Both the position numbers and the translations under genes were made by a program. A stretch of 64,000 bases of DNA from Pseudomonas iridis. Lineage in GTDB: Bacteria; Pseudomonadota; Gammaproteobacteria; Pseudomonadales; Pseudomonadaceae. Of the stretch, positions 29,037 to 35,699 are shown one piece after another. Each line of letters begins with the position of its first letter. Position 1 is the stretch's first letter. Location of the stretch: NCBI RefSeq assembly GCF_017980685.1, contig NZ_JACXXO010000001.1:310001-374000 (forward strand). Direction: 5' to 3'. The notes under the pieces were generated by a model. It was not told the DNA's origin. It saw only the letters and a program-made list of their open reading frames with translations, and searched no databases.

Positions 29037-30422
29037 TCACCCCGCAATAAAACTCACCCGTACCTTCAGCCCTGCCTGTTCACCATCATGCAGCGTGATC
29101 TGAGCCAGATGTGCCCGGCAGATCTCGCCGACAATCGCCAGCCCCAACCCCGACCCCGCCACCTGCTGATTACGCCGATAGAAGCGCTCGAACACTCGAT
29201 CGCGCTCTTGCAGCGGAATCCCCGGCCCGTCGTCTTCAACCTCAAGCACTGCCGGGGTCAGCACGCGCAAGATCACGTTGCCGCCCGGCGGCGTATGCGC
29301 CAAGGCGTTATCCACCAGATTGCTCAACAACTCATTCAGCAGCGTCGGCTCGCCACGCAGCCACACCGGTTCATCGGCCTCCAGCGCCAGCGCCACCCCG
29401 CGCTTGTGCGCCAGTGGCGCCATGGCCATGCCCAACTCGCGGGCCAACTGGCTCAGATCGAGCAACTGCGCACCGCCCTCGGCAATCGCTCGGGCGCCAT
29501 TTTCGACGCGCGCCAGCGACAGCAATTGATTGGCCAGATGAGTCAGACGATCGGTGCCTTGGGCCGAAGATTCCAGCGTCGTCCGCCAGACCTGCGGGTC
29601 ATTTGAACGCAGCCCCAATTCCAGCCGCGCCTTCAACGCCGCCAGTGGTGTGCGCAACTCATGCGCCGCATCGGCGATGAACTGCGCCTGGCGCTCGAAC
29701 TGACCCCGCAGGCGCTCGGTGAAATGGTTGAGCCCGCGCACCAGCGGCCAGAGTTCGTGTTGCACTTCCACCAGTGGCAATGGCCGCAAGTCATCGGGTT
29801 GGCGCTCTTCGACTGCCGTGCGCAAACGCTCCAGCGGACGCAGTGCGGCGCTGACGGCAAACCAGACCAACAGCAAGGCACCGATCGCCAACATACCCAA
29901 ACGCAACAGCGTATCGGCCGCCAGACTGCGCGCCATGCTGACGCGGGCTTCGTCGGTTTCGGCCACGCGGATTTCCGCCATGCCATTCATGTTCGGCTCG
30001 CTCACCGCTTTGAGCAAGCTGACCACGCGCACGTTCTGTCCTTTGTAAGTGGCATTGTAGAAACGCGCCAGCGCCGGATAGCTGTCAGTTCTTGGTGTAC
30101 CGGGAGGTGGCCCGGGGAGGTTTTCGTAGCCGGAAATCAGCTTTTGATGAATGTCGTTGACCTGGTAGTAAATCCGTCCGGCGCTGTCGTAAGCGAAGGT
30201 ATCGAGGGCCACATAAGGCACGTCGGCACTGAGGCTGCCATCACGTTGCGACAGGCCAGCGGCGATGGTTCGCGCCGACGCCAGCAACGTGCGGTCGTAC
30301 GCCGTGTCGGCCGCCTCGCGTCCATTCCAGTAAGCACTCAAGCCGCTGGCGAGCATCAACACCACCAGCAACGACGCCAGGTTCCACAGCAACCGCCAAC
30401 GCAGGCTGCTGGGCTTATGCAT
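29037..30422 (-). CDS. tctE: Sensor histidine kinase TctE
   Basis: A 461-residue inner-membrane kinase. Two transmembrane segments (about residues 12-32 and 173-195) enclose a periplasmic sensor of about 140 residues; then HAMP-like linker, H-box ADAAHELRTPLAALKARLE near residue 251, N-box NELLSNLVDNALAHTPPGG, and G-boxes VEDDGPGIP and GSGLGLAIVGEI. It overlaps tctD by eight bases and is divergent from a tctCBA uptake operon, so it most likely senses citrate or a related tricarboxylate. Confidence 0.9.
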   Translation of the reverse strand: MHKPSSLRWRLLWNLASLLVVLMLASGLSAYWNGREAADTAYDRTLLASARTIAAGLSQRDGSLSADVPYVALDTFAYDSAGRIYYQVNDIHQKLISGYENLPGPPPGTPRTDSYPALARFYNATYKGQNVRVVSLLKAVSEPNMNGMAEIRVAETDEARVSMARSLAADTLLRLGMLAIGALLLVWFAVSAALRPLERLRTAVEERQPDDLRPLPLVEVQHELWPLVRGLNHFTERLRGQFERQAQFIADAAHELRTPLAALKARLELGLRSNDPQVWRTTLESSAQGTDRLTHLANQLLSLARVENGARAIAEGGAQLLDLSQLARELGMAMAPLAHKRGVALALEADEPVWLRGEPTLLNELLSNLVDNALAHTPPGGNVILRVLTPAVLEVEDDGPGIPLQERDRVFERFYRRNQQVAGSGLGLAIVGEICRAHLAQITLHDGEQAGLKVRVSFIAG

Positions 30423-31086
30423 CGCGGCTTTCCAGCAGATAGCCGAGGCCGCGGAAGGTCACGATCGCGACCGGTTGACCGTCGAGTTTCTTGCGCAAGC
30501 GGTGCACGTAGATTTCGATGGCATCGGGGCTGGCCTCTTCATCAAGACCAAACACCTGCGCGGCCAGTTGCTCTTTGCTCATGACTCGCCCCGGCCGGGC
30601 GATCAGCGCTTCGAGCACGGCTTGCTCGCGGGACGTCAGCGTGAGCAGTTCCTCACCGAGTGAGAAGCGTCGGGTGTCGAGATCATAGGCCAGCACCCCG
30701 CAGCGCTGCTGGCGTTCACCGCCCAACACACTGCGTCGCAACAGCGCTTTGACCCGGGCTTCCAGTTCGGTCAGTTCGAACGGCTTGGCGAGGTAGTCGT
30801 CGGCGCCAAGATTGAGGCCGTGCACCCGATCTTTCACATCGCTGCGCGCCGTCAGCATCAGCACCGGCAGATTTTTCCCGCGAGCCCGCAGCCGCGCCAA
30901 CACCTCAAATCCGCCCATGCGCGGCAGGCCGACATCGAGGATCGCCACGGCGTATTCCTCACTGCCCAGTGCCAGATCGGCAGCCACGCCATCGTGCAAC
31001 ACATCCACGGTCAGACCGGTGCTCTTGAGCGCCTGGGCGACGCTTTCGGCCAGTTGCAGATGGTCTTCGACGAGCAGAACACGCAT
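30415..31086 (-). CDS. tctD: OmpR-family response regulator TctD
   Basis: A 223-residue regulator with receiver domain (phosphoacceptor Asp in VAILDVGLPRMGG near residue 51, Lys in DDYLAKPFELTEL near residue 101) and winged-helix DNA-binding domain (SREQAVLEALIARPGRVMSK). GAGGT precedes the start. It is co-transcribed with tctE and is expected to control the divergent porin-tctCBA operon, probably through the phased repeats at 31175-31207. Confidence 0.92.
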   Translation of the reverse strand: MRVLLVEDHLQLAESVAQALKSTGLTVDVLHDGVAADLALGSEEYAVAILDVGLPRMGGFEVLARLRARGKNLPVLMLTARSDVKDRVHGLNLGADDYLAKPFELTELEARVKALLRRSVLGGERQQRCGVLAYDLDTRRFSLGEELLTLTSREQAVLEALIARPGRVMSKEQLAAQVFGLDEEASPDAIEIYVHRLRKKLDGQPVAIVTFRGLGYLLESRDA

Positions 31087-31174
31087 GGATTTTTACCTCG
31101 TTCAGGGATGGCCGACGCCACTCTTTGCCGCGGAGTTTACAGCCGCAACCGCCACTGTGAAGCCCGAAAACATT

Positions 31175-31207
31175 GAAAGCCAACTGAAAGGTTAGCGAAA
31201 GGTTAGG
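31175..31207. promoter_or_regulatory. Candidate TctD operator: three phased 11-bp repeats
   Basis: Three consecutive 11-base units begin with GAAAG: GAAAGCCAACT (31175), GAAAGGTTAGC (31186) and GAAAGGTTAGG (31197). Units on one DNA face, one helical turn apart, are how OmpR-type regulators bind. The block lies in the 236-base region between tctD and the porin remnant. Binding is inferred. Confidence 0.6.
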
Positions 31208-31322
31208 CCGTTACAGTCGATTTACGGAGAGTTTCGACTGCCGTCGCTGCTGCCACACAGCGCTACGAAAAACGCCACGAAGCGTTTTCGACCAATAAGA
31301 ACAATAATCGGAGTACGCCCGC

Positions 31323-31608
31323 ATGCCGTCCATGCAGCCCCAGGTCCTTGTGCCTGTTCGCCCTTCCCGTATCAGCCACACCGCCCTCGCCAGTGCAGCC
31401 GCCCTCGCGGGTTTTTCGCCGTTGAGTTTTGCCGACTTCATTGAAGACAGCAGCGCCAGCCGAACCCCAGATCAACCATGTAGTACAAAGCGGCCCTTTG
31501 AAGGAGGTCGCCGTGCGTCTACGCAATGCCATTGACCGATCCCGCGACTCCGCTCGCCATGCAGACGAAGTGCGTTTGCTGATGAGCAATAACATTGGTC
31601 TTTGGTAA
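31323..31608 (+). pseudogene. OprD-family porin remnant with internal deletion (opdH-like)
   Basis: CGGAG and ATG 31323 open a leader-like N-terminus that reaches ADFIEDSSAS, the conserved start of mature OprD-type porins. From 31462 the next frame reads EPQINHVVQSGPLKEVAVRL, then RNAIDRSRDSARHADEVRLL and ends NIGLW with TAA 31606-31608; this is the last strand region of the same porin family, ending in an aromatic residue as outer-membrane barrels do. About 1.2 kb of a normal porin (some 400 residues) is missing and the two ends are out of frame. Position upstream of tctCBA points to the tricarboxylate porin OpdH. Confidence 0.8.
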
Positions 31609-31661
31609 ATGCCTGTCAGTGAAAAACACGTCAAACAACAACAATGCCCGTGGAGAATCGA

Positions 31662-32639
31662 ATGAACCTGTCACTGCGTAAAGTTGCACTCGCCGCCAGT
31701 TGCGTGCTGTTCGCTGGCCAACTCATGGCCGAACCGAAGCGCCCGGAATGTATCGCTCCGGCGTCGCCCGGCGGTGGTTTCGACCTGACCTGCAAACTGG
31801 TGCAGAGCGCGCTGGTCAACGAAAAACTGCTGTCCAAACCGATGCGCGTGACCTACATGCCCGGCGGTGTTGGCGCGGTGGCTTACAACGCAGTGGTTGC
31901 GCAGCGGCCAGCCGATGCCGGCACGCTGGTGGCGTGGTCGAGCGGTTCGCTGCTGAACCTGGCGCAAGGCAAGTTCGGACGCTTCGATGAGAGCAACGTG
32001 CGCTGGCTCGCGGCAGTCGGCACCAGCTACGGTGCCATCGCGGTGAAAAGCGATTCGCCCTACAAGACCCTCGACGATCTCGTTCAGGCATTGAAGAAAG
32101 ATCCCGGCTCCGTGGTCATCGGTTCCGGCGGCACCGTCGGCAGCCAGGACTGGATGCAAACCGCACTGATCGCCAAGGCTGCCGGGATCAACCCGCGCGA
32201 ACTGCGTTACGTCGCCCTCGAAGGTGGCGGCGAGATCGCCACCGCCCTGCTCGGCGGCCACATTCAGGTTGGCAGCACCGACATCTCCGACTCCATGCCG
32301 CACATCCAGAGCGGTGACATGCGCCTGCTCGCGGTATTCGCTGACAAGCGTCTCGACGAACCGGAAATGAAAGAAATCCCGACCGCTCGCGAGCAAGGCT
32401 ACGACATCGTCTGGCCAGTGGTTCGCGGTTTCTACCTGGGGCCAAAAGTCAGCGATGAAGACTACGCCTGGTGGAAAGATTCGTTCGACAAACTGCTGGC
32501 CTCCGACGAGTTCGCCAAGCTGCGCGATCAGCGTGAACTGTTCCCGTTCGCCATGACCGGCCCGGAACTGGACACCTACGTGAAGAAGCAGGTTGCGGAC
32601 TACAAAGTGCTGGCCAAAGAGTTCGGCCTGATTCAGTGA
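31662..32639 (+). CDS. tctC: Tripartite tricarboxylate transporter substrate-binding protein
   Basis: From ATG 31662 (GGAGA upstream) a 325-residue periplasmic protein with signal peptide ending LMAEPKRPEC, then CIAPASPGGGFDLTCKLV with the ligand loop PGGGFD, and a second lobe with GSGGTVGSQDW. This is the TctC/Bug family fold. It captures citrate or related tricarboxylates for TctAB. It follows the broken porin by 54 bases. Confidence 0.92.
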   Translation: MNLSLRKVALAASCVLFAGQLMAEPKRPECIAPASPGGGFDLTCKLVQSALVNEKLLSKPMRVTYMPGGVGAVAYNAVVAQRPADAGTLVAWSSGSLLNLAQGKFGRFDESNVRWLAAVGTSYGAIAVKSDSPYKTLDDLVQALKKDPGSVVIGSGGTVGSQDWMQTALIAKAAGINPRELRYVALEGGGEIATALLGGHIQVGSTDISDSMPHIQSGDMRLLAVFADKRLDEPEMKEIPTAREQGYDIVWPVVRGFYLGPKVSDEDYAWWKDSFDKLLASDEFAKLRDQRELFPFAMTGPELDTYVKKQVADYKVLAKEFGLIQ

Positions 32640-32697: not shown

Positions 32698-33156
32698 ATG
32701 CTCTTACAACGCATTTTCGCTTCGGTGCTATTGCTGGCCTGTGTCGGCCTGGCACTGATGGCGTGGCCGTACCAAGCGGCTTTTTCCTACGAACCGGTGG
32801 GCCCGCGCGCCTTCCCTCTGCTGATGCTCGGCCTGATGGGCGCAGCGCTGCTGTACATGGTGTTCCGCCCGACGCCGATCGAACACACTGAAGACGAGCC
32901 GCCACTGGATCGCCAGACCCTGACCAAGATCAGCATCTGCGTCGTGCTGTTGCTGGTGTTCGCCGGCCTCTTCGAACCCTTGGGCTTCATTCTCAGCAGC
33001 ATGCTGATCGGCATTCCGATGGCGCGTCTGTATGGCGGTCGCTGGATGCCGAGCGTCGTGGTGACCACCCTGATGGCCATCGGTCTTTACCTGCTGTTCG
33101 ACCGTGTGATGGACGTTCCGCTGCCCCTCGGCCTGCTCGACGTTCTGGAGAACTGA
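32698..33156 (+). CDS. tctB: Tripartite tricarboxylate transporter small membrane subunit
   Basis: A 152-residue protein with four hydrophobic segments (residues about 5-27, 40-57, 80-100 and 115-140), the TctB layout. The sequence GPRAFPLLMLGLMGAALL is typical. It works with TctA as the membrane permease. It lies between tctC and tctA, one base before tctA. Confidence 0.9.
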   Translation: MLLQRIFASVLLLACVGLALMAWPYQAAFSYEPVGPRAFPLLMLGLMGAALLYMVFRPTPIEHTEDEPPLDRQTLTKISICVVLLLVFAGLFEPLGFILSSMLIGIPMARLYGGRWMPSVVVTTLMAIGLYLLFDRVMDVPLPLGLLDVLEN

Positions 33157-33157
33157 T

Positions 33158-34672
33158 ATGGATACTCTTGGCTATTTGGGTCAGGGCTTCGGCGTCGCGC
33201 TGAGCCCCTACAACCTGGTGACCGCGCTGTGCGGCACGCTGATCGGCACCGTTGTCGGCCTGTTGCCGGGGCTGGGCCCGATCAACGGCGTGGCGCTGCT
33301 GATCCCGATCGCATTCGCCCTCGGCCTGCCACCGGAGTCGGCACTGATTCTGCTGGCGGCGGTGTATCTGGGCTGCGAATACGGTGGCCGGATCAGCTCG
33401 ATCCTGCTGAACATTCCGGGCGAAGCTTCCACCGTGATGACCACCCTCGACGGCTACCCGATGGCCCGCAAAGGCATGGCCGGTGTGGCGCTGTCGTTGT
33501 CGGCGTGGAGTTCGTTCATCGGCGCCTTCATCGCCACGTGCGGCATGGTGATGTTCGCCCCGCTGCTGGCGAAATGGGCGATTGCCTTTGGCCCGGCGGA
33601 ATACTTCGTGCTGATGGTGTTTGCGATTGTCTGCCTGGGCGGCATGGCTGGTGATCGACCACTGAAGACATTTATTGCGGCGTTGATCGGTTTGTTCCTG
33701 TCGACGGTCGGCATCGACGCCAACAGCGGCGTGTACCGTTTCACCGGCGATAACATTCACCTGACCGACGGCATTCAATTCGTCGTGCTGGTGCTGGGCC
33801 TGTTCTCGATCAGCGAAATTCTGTTGCTGCTGGAGAAAACCCATCGCGGCCAGGAAGCGGTGAAAGCCACCGGTCGAATGATGTTCAACTTCAAGGAAGC
33901 GGCGTCGGTGTTCACCGTGAACATCCGTTGCGGCCTGCTCGGGTTCATCATGGGCGTGTTGCCGGGTGCCGGTGCGACGCTGGCCAGTGCCGTGGCCTAC
34001 ATGACCGAAAAACGCATCGCCGGGACCAGCGGCAAGTTCGGTGAAGGCGATGCCCGTGGCCTGGCCGCCCCGGAAACCGCCATTGGTGCATCGGCTTGCG
34101 GCGCCCTGGTGCCGATGCTGACGCTCGGCGTTCCGGGTTCGGGTACCACGGCGGTGATGATCGGCGCGCTGTCGCTGTACAACATCACTCCGGGGCCGCT
34201 GTTGTTCCAGCAACAACCGGACATCGTCTGGGGCCTGATCGCGTCGTTGTTTGTCGCCAACATCATGCTGGTGATCCTCAACATTCCGATGATCCGCATC
34301 TTCACCCGCATCCTCGCCGTGCCGAACTGGGCACTGGTGCCAGTCATCGCGATCATCACCGGCATCGGCGTCTATGCAGTACACGCGACCACCTTCGATC
34401 TGTTCCTGATGGTCGGCATCGGCATCTTCGGTTACATCCTGCGCAAGCTCGACTTCCCGTTGTCGCCGGTTCTGCTGGGTTTCATCCTCGGTGGTCTGAT
34501 GGAGCAGAACCTGCGTCGCGCGCTGTCGATCTCCAACGGCGCACTGGAAATCCTCTGGTCGAGCCCGATCACCTTCGGGGTCTGGGTACTGACCGCGATC
34601 ATGTTGCTCGTGCCGCTGCTGCGCATCTGGCGCAAACGTTCGGTCGCTCGGCGCGCTATCGCCGATGTTTGA
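33158..34672 (+). CDS. tctA: Tripartite tricarboxylate transporter large membrane subunit
   Basis: A 504-residue permease with about 11-12 membrane segments. The family motif GLLPGLGPINGVALLIP at residues 32-48 and its inverted copy GVLPGAGATLASAVAYMTEK near residue 267 are both present, together with LGVPGSGTTAVMIGAL. Complete, no lesion seen. It overlaps the next gene by eight bases. Confidence 0.94.
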   Translation: MDTLGYLGQGFGVALSPYNLVTALCGTLIGTVVGLLPGLGPINGVALLIPIAFALGLPPESALILLAAVYLGCEYGGRISSILLNIPGEASTVMTTLDGYPMARKGMAGVALSLSAWSSFIGAFIATCGMVMFAPLLAKWAIAFGPAEYFVLMVFAIVCLGGMAGDRPLKTFIAALIGLFLSTVGIDANSGVYRFTGDNIHLTDGIQFVVLVLGLFSISEILLLLEKTHRGQEAVKATGRMMFNFKEAASVFTVNIRCGLLGFIMGVLPGAGATLASAVAYMTEKRIAGTSGKFGEGDARGLAAPETAIGASACGALVPMLTLGVPGSGTTAVMIGALSLYNITPGPLLFQQQPDIVWGLIASLFVANIMLVILNIPMIRIFTRILAVPNWALVPVIAIITGIGVYAVHATTFDLFLMVGIGIFGYILRKLDFPLSPVLLGFILGGLMEQNLRRALSISNGALEILWSSPITFGVWVLTAIMLLVPLLRIWRKRSVARRAIADV

Positions 34673-35699
34673 TCGGCTGTCGCTAAAGTCCTGGTGGGGA
34701 ACCCCGCTGGTCGGTCTGCTTGGCGGTTACCTCGCCAGCCAGATCGGCTGGCCGTTGCCGTGGATGGTCGGCTCGTTGCTGGCGATCATCCTCGTGCGCT
34801 GCCTGACCCCGTGGCAACTGACGGAAATCCCTGGCGGGCGCAAATGCGGCCAGTGGATCGTCGGGATCGGCATTGGCCTGCACTTCACCCCGGTGGTGAT
34901 GGAGCAGGTGCTGAGTCATTTCGGTTTGATCTTCTTCGGTGCGCTGGTCACCAGTTTGTCGGCGGTGGTTGGCGTGTGGTTGATGCGCCGCACCGGTGAG
35001 GACCGCGCCACGGCGTTTTTCTCCAGCATGCCCGGTGGCTCCGGGGAGATGGTCAACCTCGGCGCACGCAACGGCGCAATGCTCAGCCATGTCGCGGCGG
35101 GGCAAAGCCTGCGGGTATTGGTGGTGGTGCTGTGTGTGCCGGCGGCGTTCAAGTATTTGCTTGGCGACGGCACGCCAATTTCTCATGCCGGCAGCGTCGA
35201 TTGGCGCTGGCTGGCCATCCTGTTTCCGGCGGGCGCCCTGCTCGCCTGGATCTGGCAGCGCCTGCGCCAACCCAATCCATGGCTGTTCGGGCCGTTGCTG
35301 GTGAGTGCGGCGGTGAGCATCGGCTGGGATCTGCACATCGGCTTGCCCGATGGCGGCAGCCAGATTGGCCAATGGTTGATCGGCAGCGGATTGGGTTGTC
35401 ACTTCAACCGGCAGTTTTTCAGGCGTGCGCCGTCATTCATGGGCCGCACGTTGATCGGTACGGCACTGACCATGTTGATCGCAACCTTGGCGGCGCTGGG
35501 ACTGAGCGCTTTAACGCATCTGGATCTGCGTTCGCTGACGCTGGGCATGATGCCCGGTGGTATCGCCGAGATGAGCCTGACGGCGGAAACCCTGCAACTG
35601 TCGGTGCCGCTGGTGACGGCGATGCAGGTGATGCGGCTGTTGTTTGTGCTGTTTCTGGCCGAGCCGTTGTTCAAGTACTGGAATCGTAATCCCGAGTAA
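34665..35699 (+). CDS. AbrB-family membrane protein
   Basis: A 344-residue protein with about ten membrane segments in two similar halves; SSMPGGSGEMVNLGARNGA near residue 121 and the matching LGMMPGGIAEMSLTAETLQL near residue 297 are the AbrB (putative ammonia monooxygenase/transport) repeats. Not related to the DNA-binding AbrB. Role unknown; the eight-base overlap with tctA suggests a function connected with tricarboxylate uptake. Confidence 0.85.
   Translation: MFDRLSLKSWWGTPLVGLLGGYLASQIGWPLPWMVGSLLAIILVRCLTPWQLTEIPGGRKCGQWIVGIGIGLHFTPVVMEQVLSHFGLIFFGALVTSLSAVVGVWLMRRTGEDRATAFFSSMPGGSGEMVNLGARNGAMLSHVAAGQSLRVLVVVLCVPAAFKYLLGDGTPISHAGSVDWRWLAILFPAGALLAWIWQRLRQPNPWLFGPLLVSAAVSIGWDLHIGLPDGGSQIGQWLIGSGLGCHFNRQFFRRAPSFMGRTLIGTALTMLIATLAALGLSALTHLDLRSLTLGMMPGGIAEMSLTAETLQLSVPLVTAMQVMRLLFVLFLAEPLFKYWNRNPE

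Follow-up and report, generated by a model that had tools for sequence, protein, structure and literature searches.

Positions 31323-31608 of the window (the whole stretch of 64,000 nucleotides that was analysed) hold a pseudogene of an OpdH/OccK5-type porin at the head of a tct operon. The genes and features of the locus are the following.

29037-30422, minus strand: tctE, sensor kinase.
30415-31086, minus strand: tctD, response regulator.
31087-31322, plus strand: intergenic leader between tctD and the porin, kept in intact and lost loci.
31186-31204, plus strand: direct repeat GAAAGGTT-N3-GAAAGGTT.
31294-31307, plus strand: A-rich motif AATAAGAACAATAA upstream of the porin start.
31323-31458, plus strand: 5' remnant of the opdH-type porin gene, with start codon and about 46 codons.
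31459-31465, plus strand: deletion junction, 7 nt that belong to neither side with confidence; net 1007 nt missing.
31466-31608, plus strand: 3' remnant of the porin gene in the other frame, with the last strand and the stop codon.
31662-32639, plus strand: tctC, periplasmic binding protein.
32698-33156, plus strand: tctB.
33158-34672, plus strand: tctA.

The relic opens with an ATG at 31323, preceded by a CGGAG ribosome-binding site, and its N-terminal frame reads through ADFIEDSSAS; the shifted frame of this 5' piece continues to a stop at 31535. The C-terminal piece lies in a second frame and runs from EPQINHVVQSGPL to NIGLW, with the stop codon at 31606-31608. The start codon with its ribosome-binding site and the two protein ends in different frames had been pointed out in a sequence-only reading of the same DNA and were read again in the window. 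The OprD/OpdH likeness asserted there was borne out as well, in that the C-terminal ORF passed the Pfam OprD cut-off (31.7 bits against 25) and the full porin of a relative, G019, aligned with the window at both ends, over residues 1-61 (E 3.4e-18) and 384-430 (E 1.9e-10); the N-terminal ORF matched no family in the Pfam search. Alignment with 11 intact relatives placed the start of the C-terminal piece at 31466 in 11 of 11 cases and the end of the N-terminal piece at 31458 or 31468, which agrees with the internal deletion claimed before, as both gene ends are kept and the middle is gone. The site of the junction, earlier put near 31460, was about right and is refined to about 31459-31465, but the 1.2 kb given as missing was a little too high: all 13 close relatives compared have an intact gene of 1293 nt and the relic has 286 nt, a net loss of 1007 nt. 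Of 430 codons about 92 are left, the first 46 or so and the last 46 or so, in two frames. A complete OprD/Occ porin is an 18-strand barrel, and a complete barrel gene in one frame is absent from 31323-31608, so that the locus is a pseudogene with no working OprD/Occ member, and production of a channel from it is impossible. Taken alone, this feature of the window is an ordinary pseudogene.

Closeness to OpdH among the solved porins was judged on the intact G019 porin and not on the relic itself; the top matches were 2y0l (E 4.1e-176) and 3t20 (E 6e-174), both solved structures of OpdH, followed by 4fso (E 5.3e-142). The relic lies between tctD and tctC, as an OpdH-type porin does, and chance is excluded because two pieces of one gene stand there in their proper order. 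A search of genomes for the deletion junction, a comparison that the sequence-only reading had proposed, found the junction sequence (up to 3 mismatches) in 1 of 398 genomes, namely this one. The loci nearest on the tctC+tctD tree, such as G183 and G220, carry intact porins. A repeat-mediated deletion was considered and is at most a possible mechanism: CGCAACA occurs near both break points in aligned relatives but is not kept at the window junction.

The genes on both sides are in order. TctC, TctB, TctA, the response regulator and the sensor kinase are all complete in the window as ORFs, as had been maintained for tctCBA and TctDE, and exceed the Pfam cut-offs (PF03401, PF07331, PF01970, PF00072/PF00486 and PF08521/PF02518); searches with tctC began at codon 4 (31671), and its start at 31662 was taken from the sequence. 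The end of tctA is overlapped by a gene for an AbrB-family membrane protein (34665-35699), a possible further member of the operon. Trees were built from 151 loci, 85 intact and 66 lost; 8 of the lost ones come from genomes with TctC beyond the 150 classified below and were added together with intact loci. Of the 85 intact and 66 lost loci, 83 and 59 have the direct repeat, 81 and 61 a looser form of the A-rich motif, and 68 and 52 an inverted repeat of the leader. The direct repeat could at a guess be a TctD site, and the A-rich motif is taken by us to be a putative Hfq/Crc-like element. A search of 31080-31700 for forward sigma-70-like promoters gave none, Rfam gave no known RNA in 30900-31800, and the stability of the leader hairpin was no better than that of shuffled sequences (z 0.38).

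To see the relic among its relatives, 249 genomes of the genus Pseudomonas were searched, one per species; 243 had a TctC match with an E value of 1e-140 or lower, and the porin state was classified in the best 150 of these. An OpdH-type porin lies 44-195 nt upstream of tctC in 91 genomes and is missing in 59, of which 58 have lost it, with a tctD-tctC spacer of 239-584 nt, and one (G244) is cut by a contig end and was not counted as lost because the C-terminal part of its porin runs into that end. In nine lost genomes the leader directly abuts tctC (spacers 201-253 nt). In an independent set drawn from named organisms, the 80 best of at least 542 loci, 33 were intact and 47 lost. The loss that had been ascribed to this strain is real but is not simply one strain's accident, given 58 losses in 150 genomes and a relic that has long drifted (see below); among related species, loss of this porin has recurred many times. 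Intermediate stages were found as partly eroded relics: porin nucleotides 1-111 and 1128-1293 remain in Pseudomonas sp. N40(2020), 1-113 and 1248-1293 in P. bananamidigenes BW11P2, and 923-1293 in Pseudomonas sp. Irchel s3f7, all with break points other than those of the window, and traces of both porin ends remain in P. tehranensis SWRI196 (loci L210, L247, L275 and L273, respectively). For 39 of the 47 named scars blastn with E values up to 0.01 detected no porin sequence, and the loss is therefore deduced from position, from the shared leader and from trees that place the intact state at their root.

Three further loci of this survey were recorded on the side. In G063 (C19:572104-573324) a match to the OpdH-type porin contains one in-frame TAA, possibly a fresh inactivation. 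In two genomes tctC is in two pieces, either by a real break or by sequencing error: G007 (C1:339458-340427) has an intact porin alongside, and in G034 (C1:2473644-2474608) the porin alongside is lost.

On the tctC+tctD tree of the 151 loci, 20 changes of porin state and 24 all-lost clades were counted, or 19-24 losses after weak nodes were collapsed. The tree of the leader with the first 300 nt of tctC gave 14 changes and 17 all-lost clades for the same loci, and the other trees gave 13 changes (leader alone), 16 (5' part of tctC), 24 (3' part of tctC) and 22 (tctD), as compared with a mean of about 49 after shuffling of the labels. The window genome forms a separate lost clade both on the tctC+tctD tree and on the tree of the leader with the first 300 nt of tctC. 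On this latter tree, that of the block adjoining the porin, 23 lost genomes form one clade though they are scattered on the tctC+tctD tree, and the scar members of this family have a similar scar end and a similar start of tctC.

This conflict was followed in an exchange test of 40 genomes of the fluorescens group (22 lost, 18 intact), in which nadB, about 5-7 kb away, was used for choosing relatives independently of the tct genes. The last part of the leader, the block and the first 160 nt of tctC each required a single state change, against 9 for tctD, 10 for nadB and 6 for tctC beyond 160 nt; shuffled labels gave means of 13.3-13.5 (for nadB, mean 13.4 and minimum 9), and since the 10 changes of nadB lie near the low end of the shuffles, some vertical signal remains. 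One change on the block against 9 on tctD and 10 on nadB suggests that presence or absence of the porin is an allele exchanged between species. For each lost genome, the nearest intact genome by nadB was then compared with lost genomes more distant by nadB. Of 22 cases, the intact neighbour was the closer one in 19 over tctD, in 15 over nt 1-140 of the leader, in none at the leader end and in 1 just upstream of tctC; within tctC it was closer in 0 of 22 over the first 80 nt, in 14 over nt 80-320 and in 17 over nt 320-960. Within each form the diversity of the block about equals that of nadB, and between the forms the identity is 0.804 at the leader end and 0.786 at the tctC start against 0.880 for nadB, all in 39 genomes, as one nadB match that spans 63 residues was kept in the 40-genome test and dropped for the diversity comparison. 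The edge of the block within tctC is blurred on trees, with 3 changes for the whole tctC tree of 64 genomes and the 6 found for the rest of tctC. An aligned version with 13 pairs took the sisters from the tctC+tctD tree, and the comparison with nadB-chosen relatives was relied on instead; ygfZ, tried as a second marker, had matches in 19 of the 40 stretches only and was left unused.

These patterns fit an old two-form locus that would have been exchanged by recombination over a short block within the fluorescens group. A tentative extension, which we put forward as possible and somewhat short of even odds, is that porin and scar are a two-allele system, long kept and exchanged, with a block that takes in the leader end, the porin or scar and the signal-peptide codons of tctC; the channel may help at low citrate and be a liability elsewhere, perhaps as a docking site for phage or bacteriocin. 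In the 23-genome scar family, codons 4-30 of tctC encode a slightly different signal peptide, with SLRRFALAASC where many intact genomes have SLRKVALAA. On plasmid pPL2 of Pseudomonas silesiensis G3 (NZ_CP143489.1; L197, 6001-7616), a complete OpdH-type porin with 92% identity to the G019 one stands behind the tct leader, and of tctC just the last 25 residues follow, a locus that can be seen as the mirror image of the window and as a sign of porin mobility.

Could the porin have been lost many separate times with no exchange at all, so that like scars have parallel origins or the trees are misleading? The 20 changes and 24 all-lost clades of the tctC+tctD tree, which persist as 19-24 losses with weak nodes collapsed, are what such an account would draw on, and it is unlikely all the same: the 23 genomes scattered on that tree are one clade by the block, their scars share similar sequence, the same end of a short ORF and the same tctC start, which makes a parallel origin improbable, and the independent gene nadB also conflicts with the block.

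Somewhat less likely again is that a paralogous porin replaced OpdH and made its gene dispensable. The genome does contain 12 other full OprD-family porins, one of them 59% identical to the lost type, but the best solved match of this nearest paralog is 4fso and not OpdH, and in a tally made by hand, with up to 7 candidates per genome scored, a near paralog was present in 32 of 58 lost and 49 of 91 intact genomes (Fisher p = 1.0); a backup paralog was rejected, as near paralogs show no association with porin loss. The nearest paralog (L135 6051-7466, on contig C21 of the same genome) is a lone porin beside a large ORF, presumably that of a VgrG-like protein.

The scars might instead be working small genes, the short ORF at the porin start giving a conserved or leader peptide. 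One scar family has 23 loci, 12 of which carry a 36-codon ORF that runs from the porin ATG and stops 45-47 nt upstream of the tctC query start, but its dN/dS of 0.76 equals the 0.75 of another reading frame closely, a ratio as low was obtained in 101 of 300 column shuffles, and the ORFs of the window match that family at the porin start only. A functional short peptide was rejected for this absence of coding constraint, and we regard such a gene as very improbable.

The remaining codons of the relic have drifted. Against 13 intact relatives, over 46 + 46 codons, the relic shows pS 0.265, pN 0.117 and a ratio of 0.44, compared with pS 0.229, pN 0.023 and a ratio of 0.10 for the intact porins against one another over the same codons and with pS 0.262, pN 0.016 and a ratio of 0.06 for the tctC of the window against the same 13 relatives. 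By these ratios the relic has evolved without constraint for a good part of the lineage's time. An assembly or sequencing error in a genome that truly carries the whole porin gene is scarcely credible, draft of 46 contigs though it is, because each of 13 comparisons with intact relatives gave 16-17 amino-acid-changing differences over the 46 C-terminal codons, a collapse would not yield such differences in the remaining pieces, and the contig that carries the relic is 1.04 Mb long.

The reading preferred here, with a probability of roughly 0.85, is that 31323-31608 is a porin pseudogene made by internal deletion, one of many losses, and that intact and lost forms appear to have been exchanged in the fluorescens group. 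The deletion removed the barrel and left the TctD-side promoter region and the leader upstream and the ribosome-binding site of tctC downstream, so that tctCBA is probably still expressed. As signals for tctCBA flank the porin on both sides, the deletions that were tolerated would be those confined to the porin, with the middle lost and the ends kept. Species of the fluorescens group appear to swap a short stretch that holds either the intact porin or an older scar, and the loss in the window is a separate event within the intact form. The missing channel may affect uptake at low citrate; the sequence-only reading had suggested weak uptake or use of another porin.

The order of genes, with divergent tctD followed by porin, tctC, tctB and tctA, is that of opdH-tctCBA with tctDE in P. 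aeruginosa, and the porin of an intact relative is closest to the OpdH structures 2y0l and 3t20; in contrast to P. aeruginosa, the porin is destroyed here and two ends remain. In the literature, opdH-tctCBA of P. aeruginosa is described as regulated by TctD (PMC4513871) and as a TctED-induced operon under Crc control (PMC10865840). PMC6403454 states that OpdH is required for tricarboxylate transport, and one paper that it is unnecessary on millimolar citrate. A mild cost of porin loss is thus plausible. No published report of recurrent opdH loss was found in a literature search, which does not prove that there is none. P. aeruginosa loses OprD-family porins under carbapenems, and the present case is alike in that an OprD-family channel is lost by mutation and the cell survives. 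Unlike loss under carbapenems, the loss here is old and fixed in many species, it affects the tct porin only, and one group shows signs that the lost form passes from species to species.

The interest of the locus lies in this wider pattern, in which half of an uptake system has been lost again and again, together with an apparent exchange of its forms between species. Porins are usually taken as fixed parts of their operons, and here the outer-membrane half is gone in 58 of 150 classified genomes; as the inner half and the regulator are kept, the cost and benefit of the porin can be tested in natural pairs of strains. Surface alleles that are switchable across species are usually tied to conflict at the cell surface. 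If the exchange is true, an outer-membrane channel would be a switchable allele common to several species.
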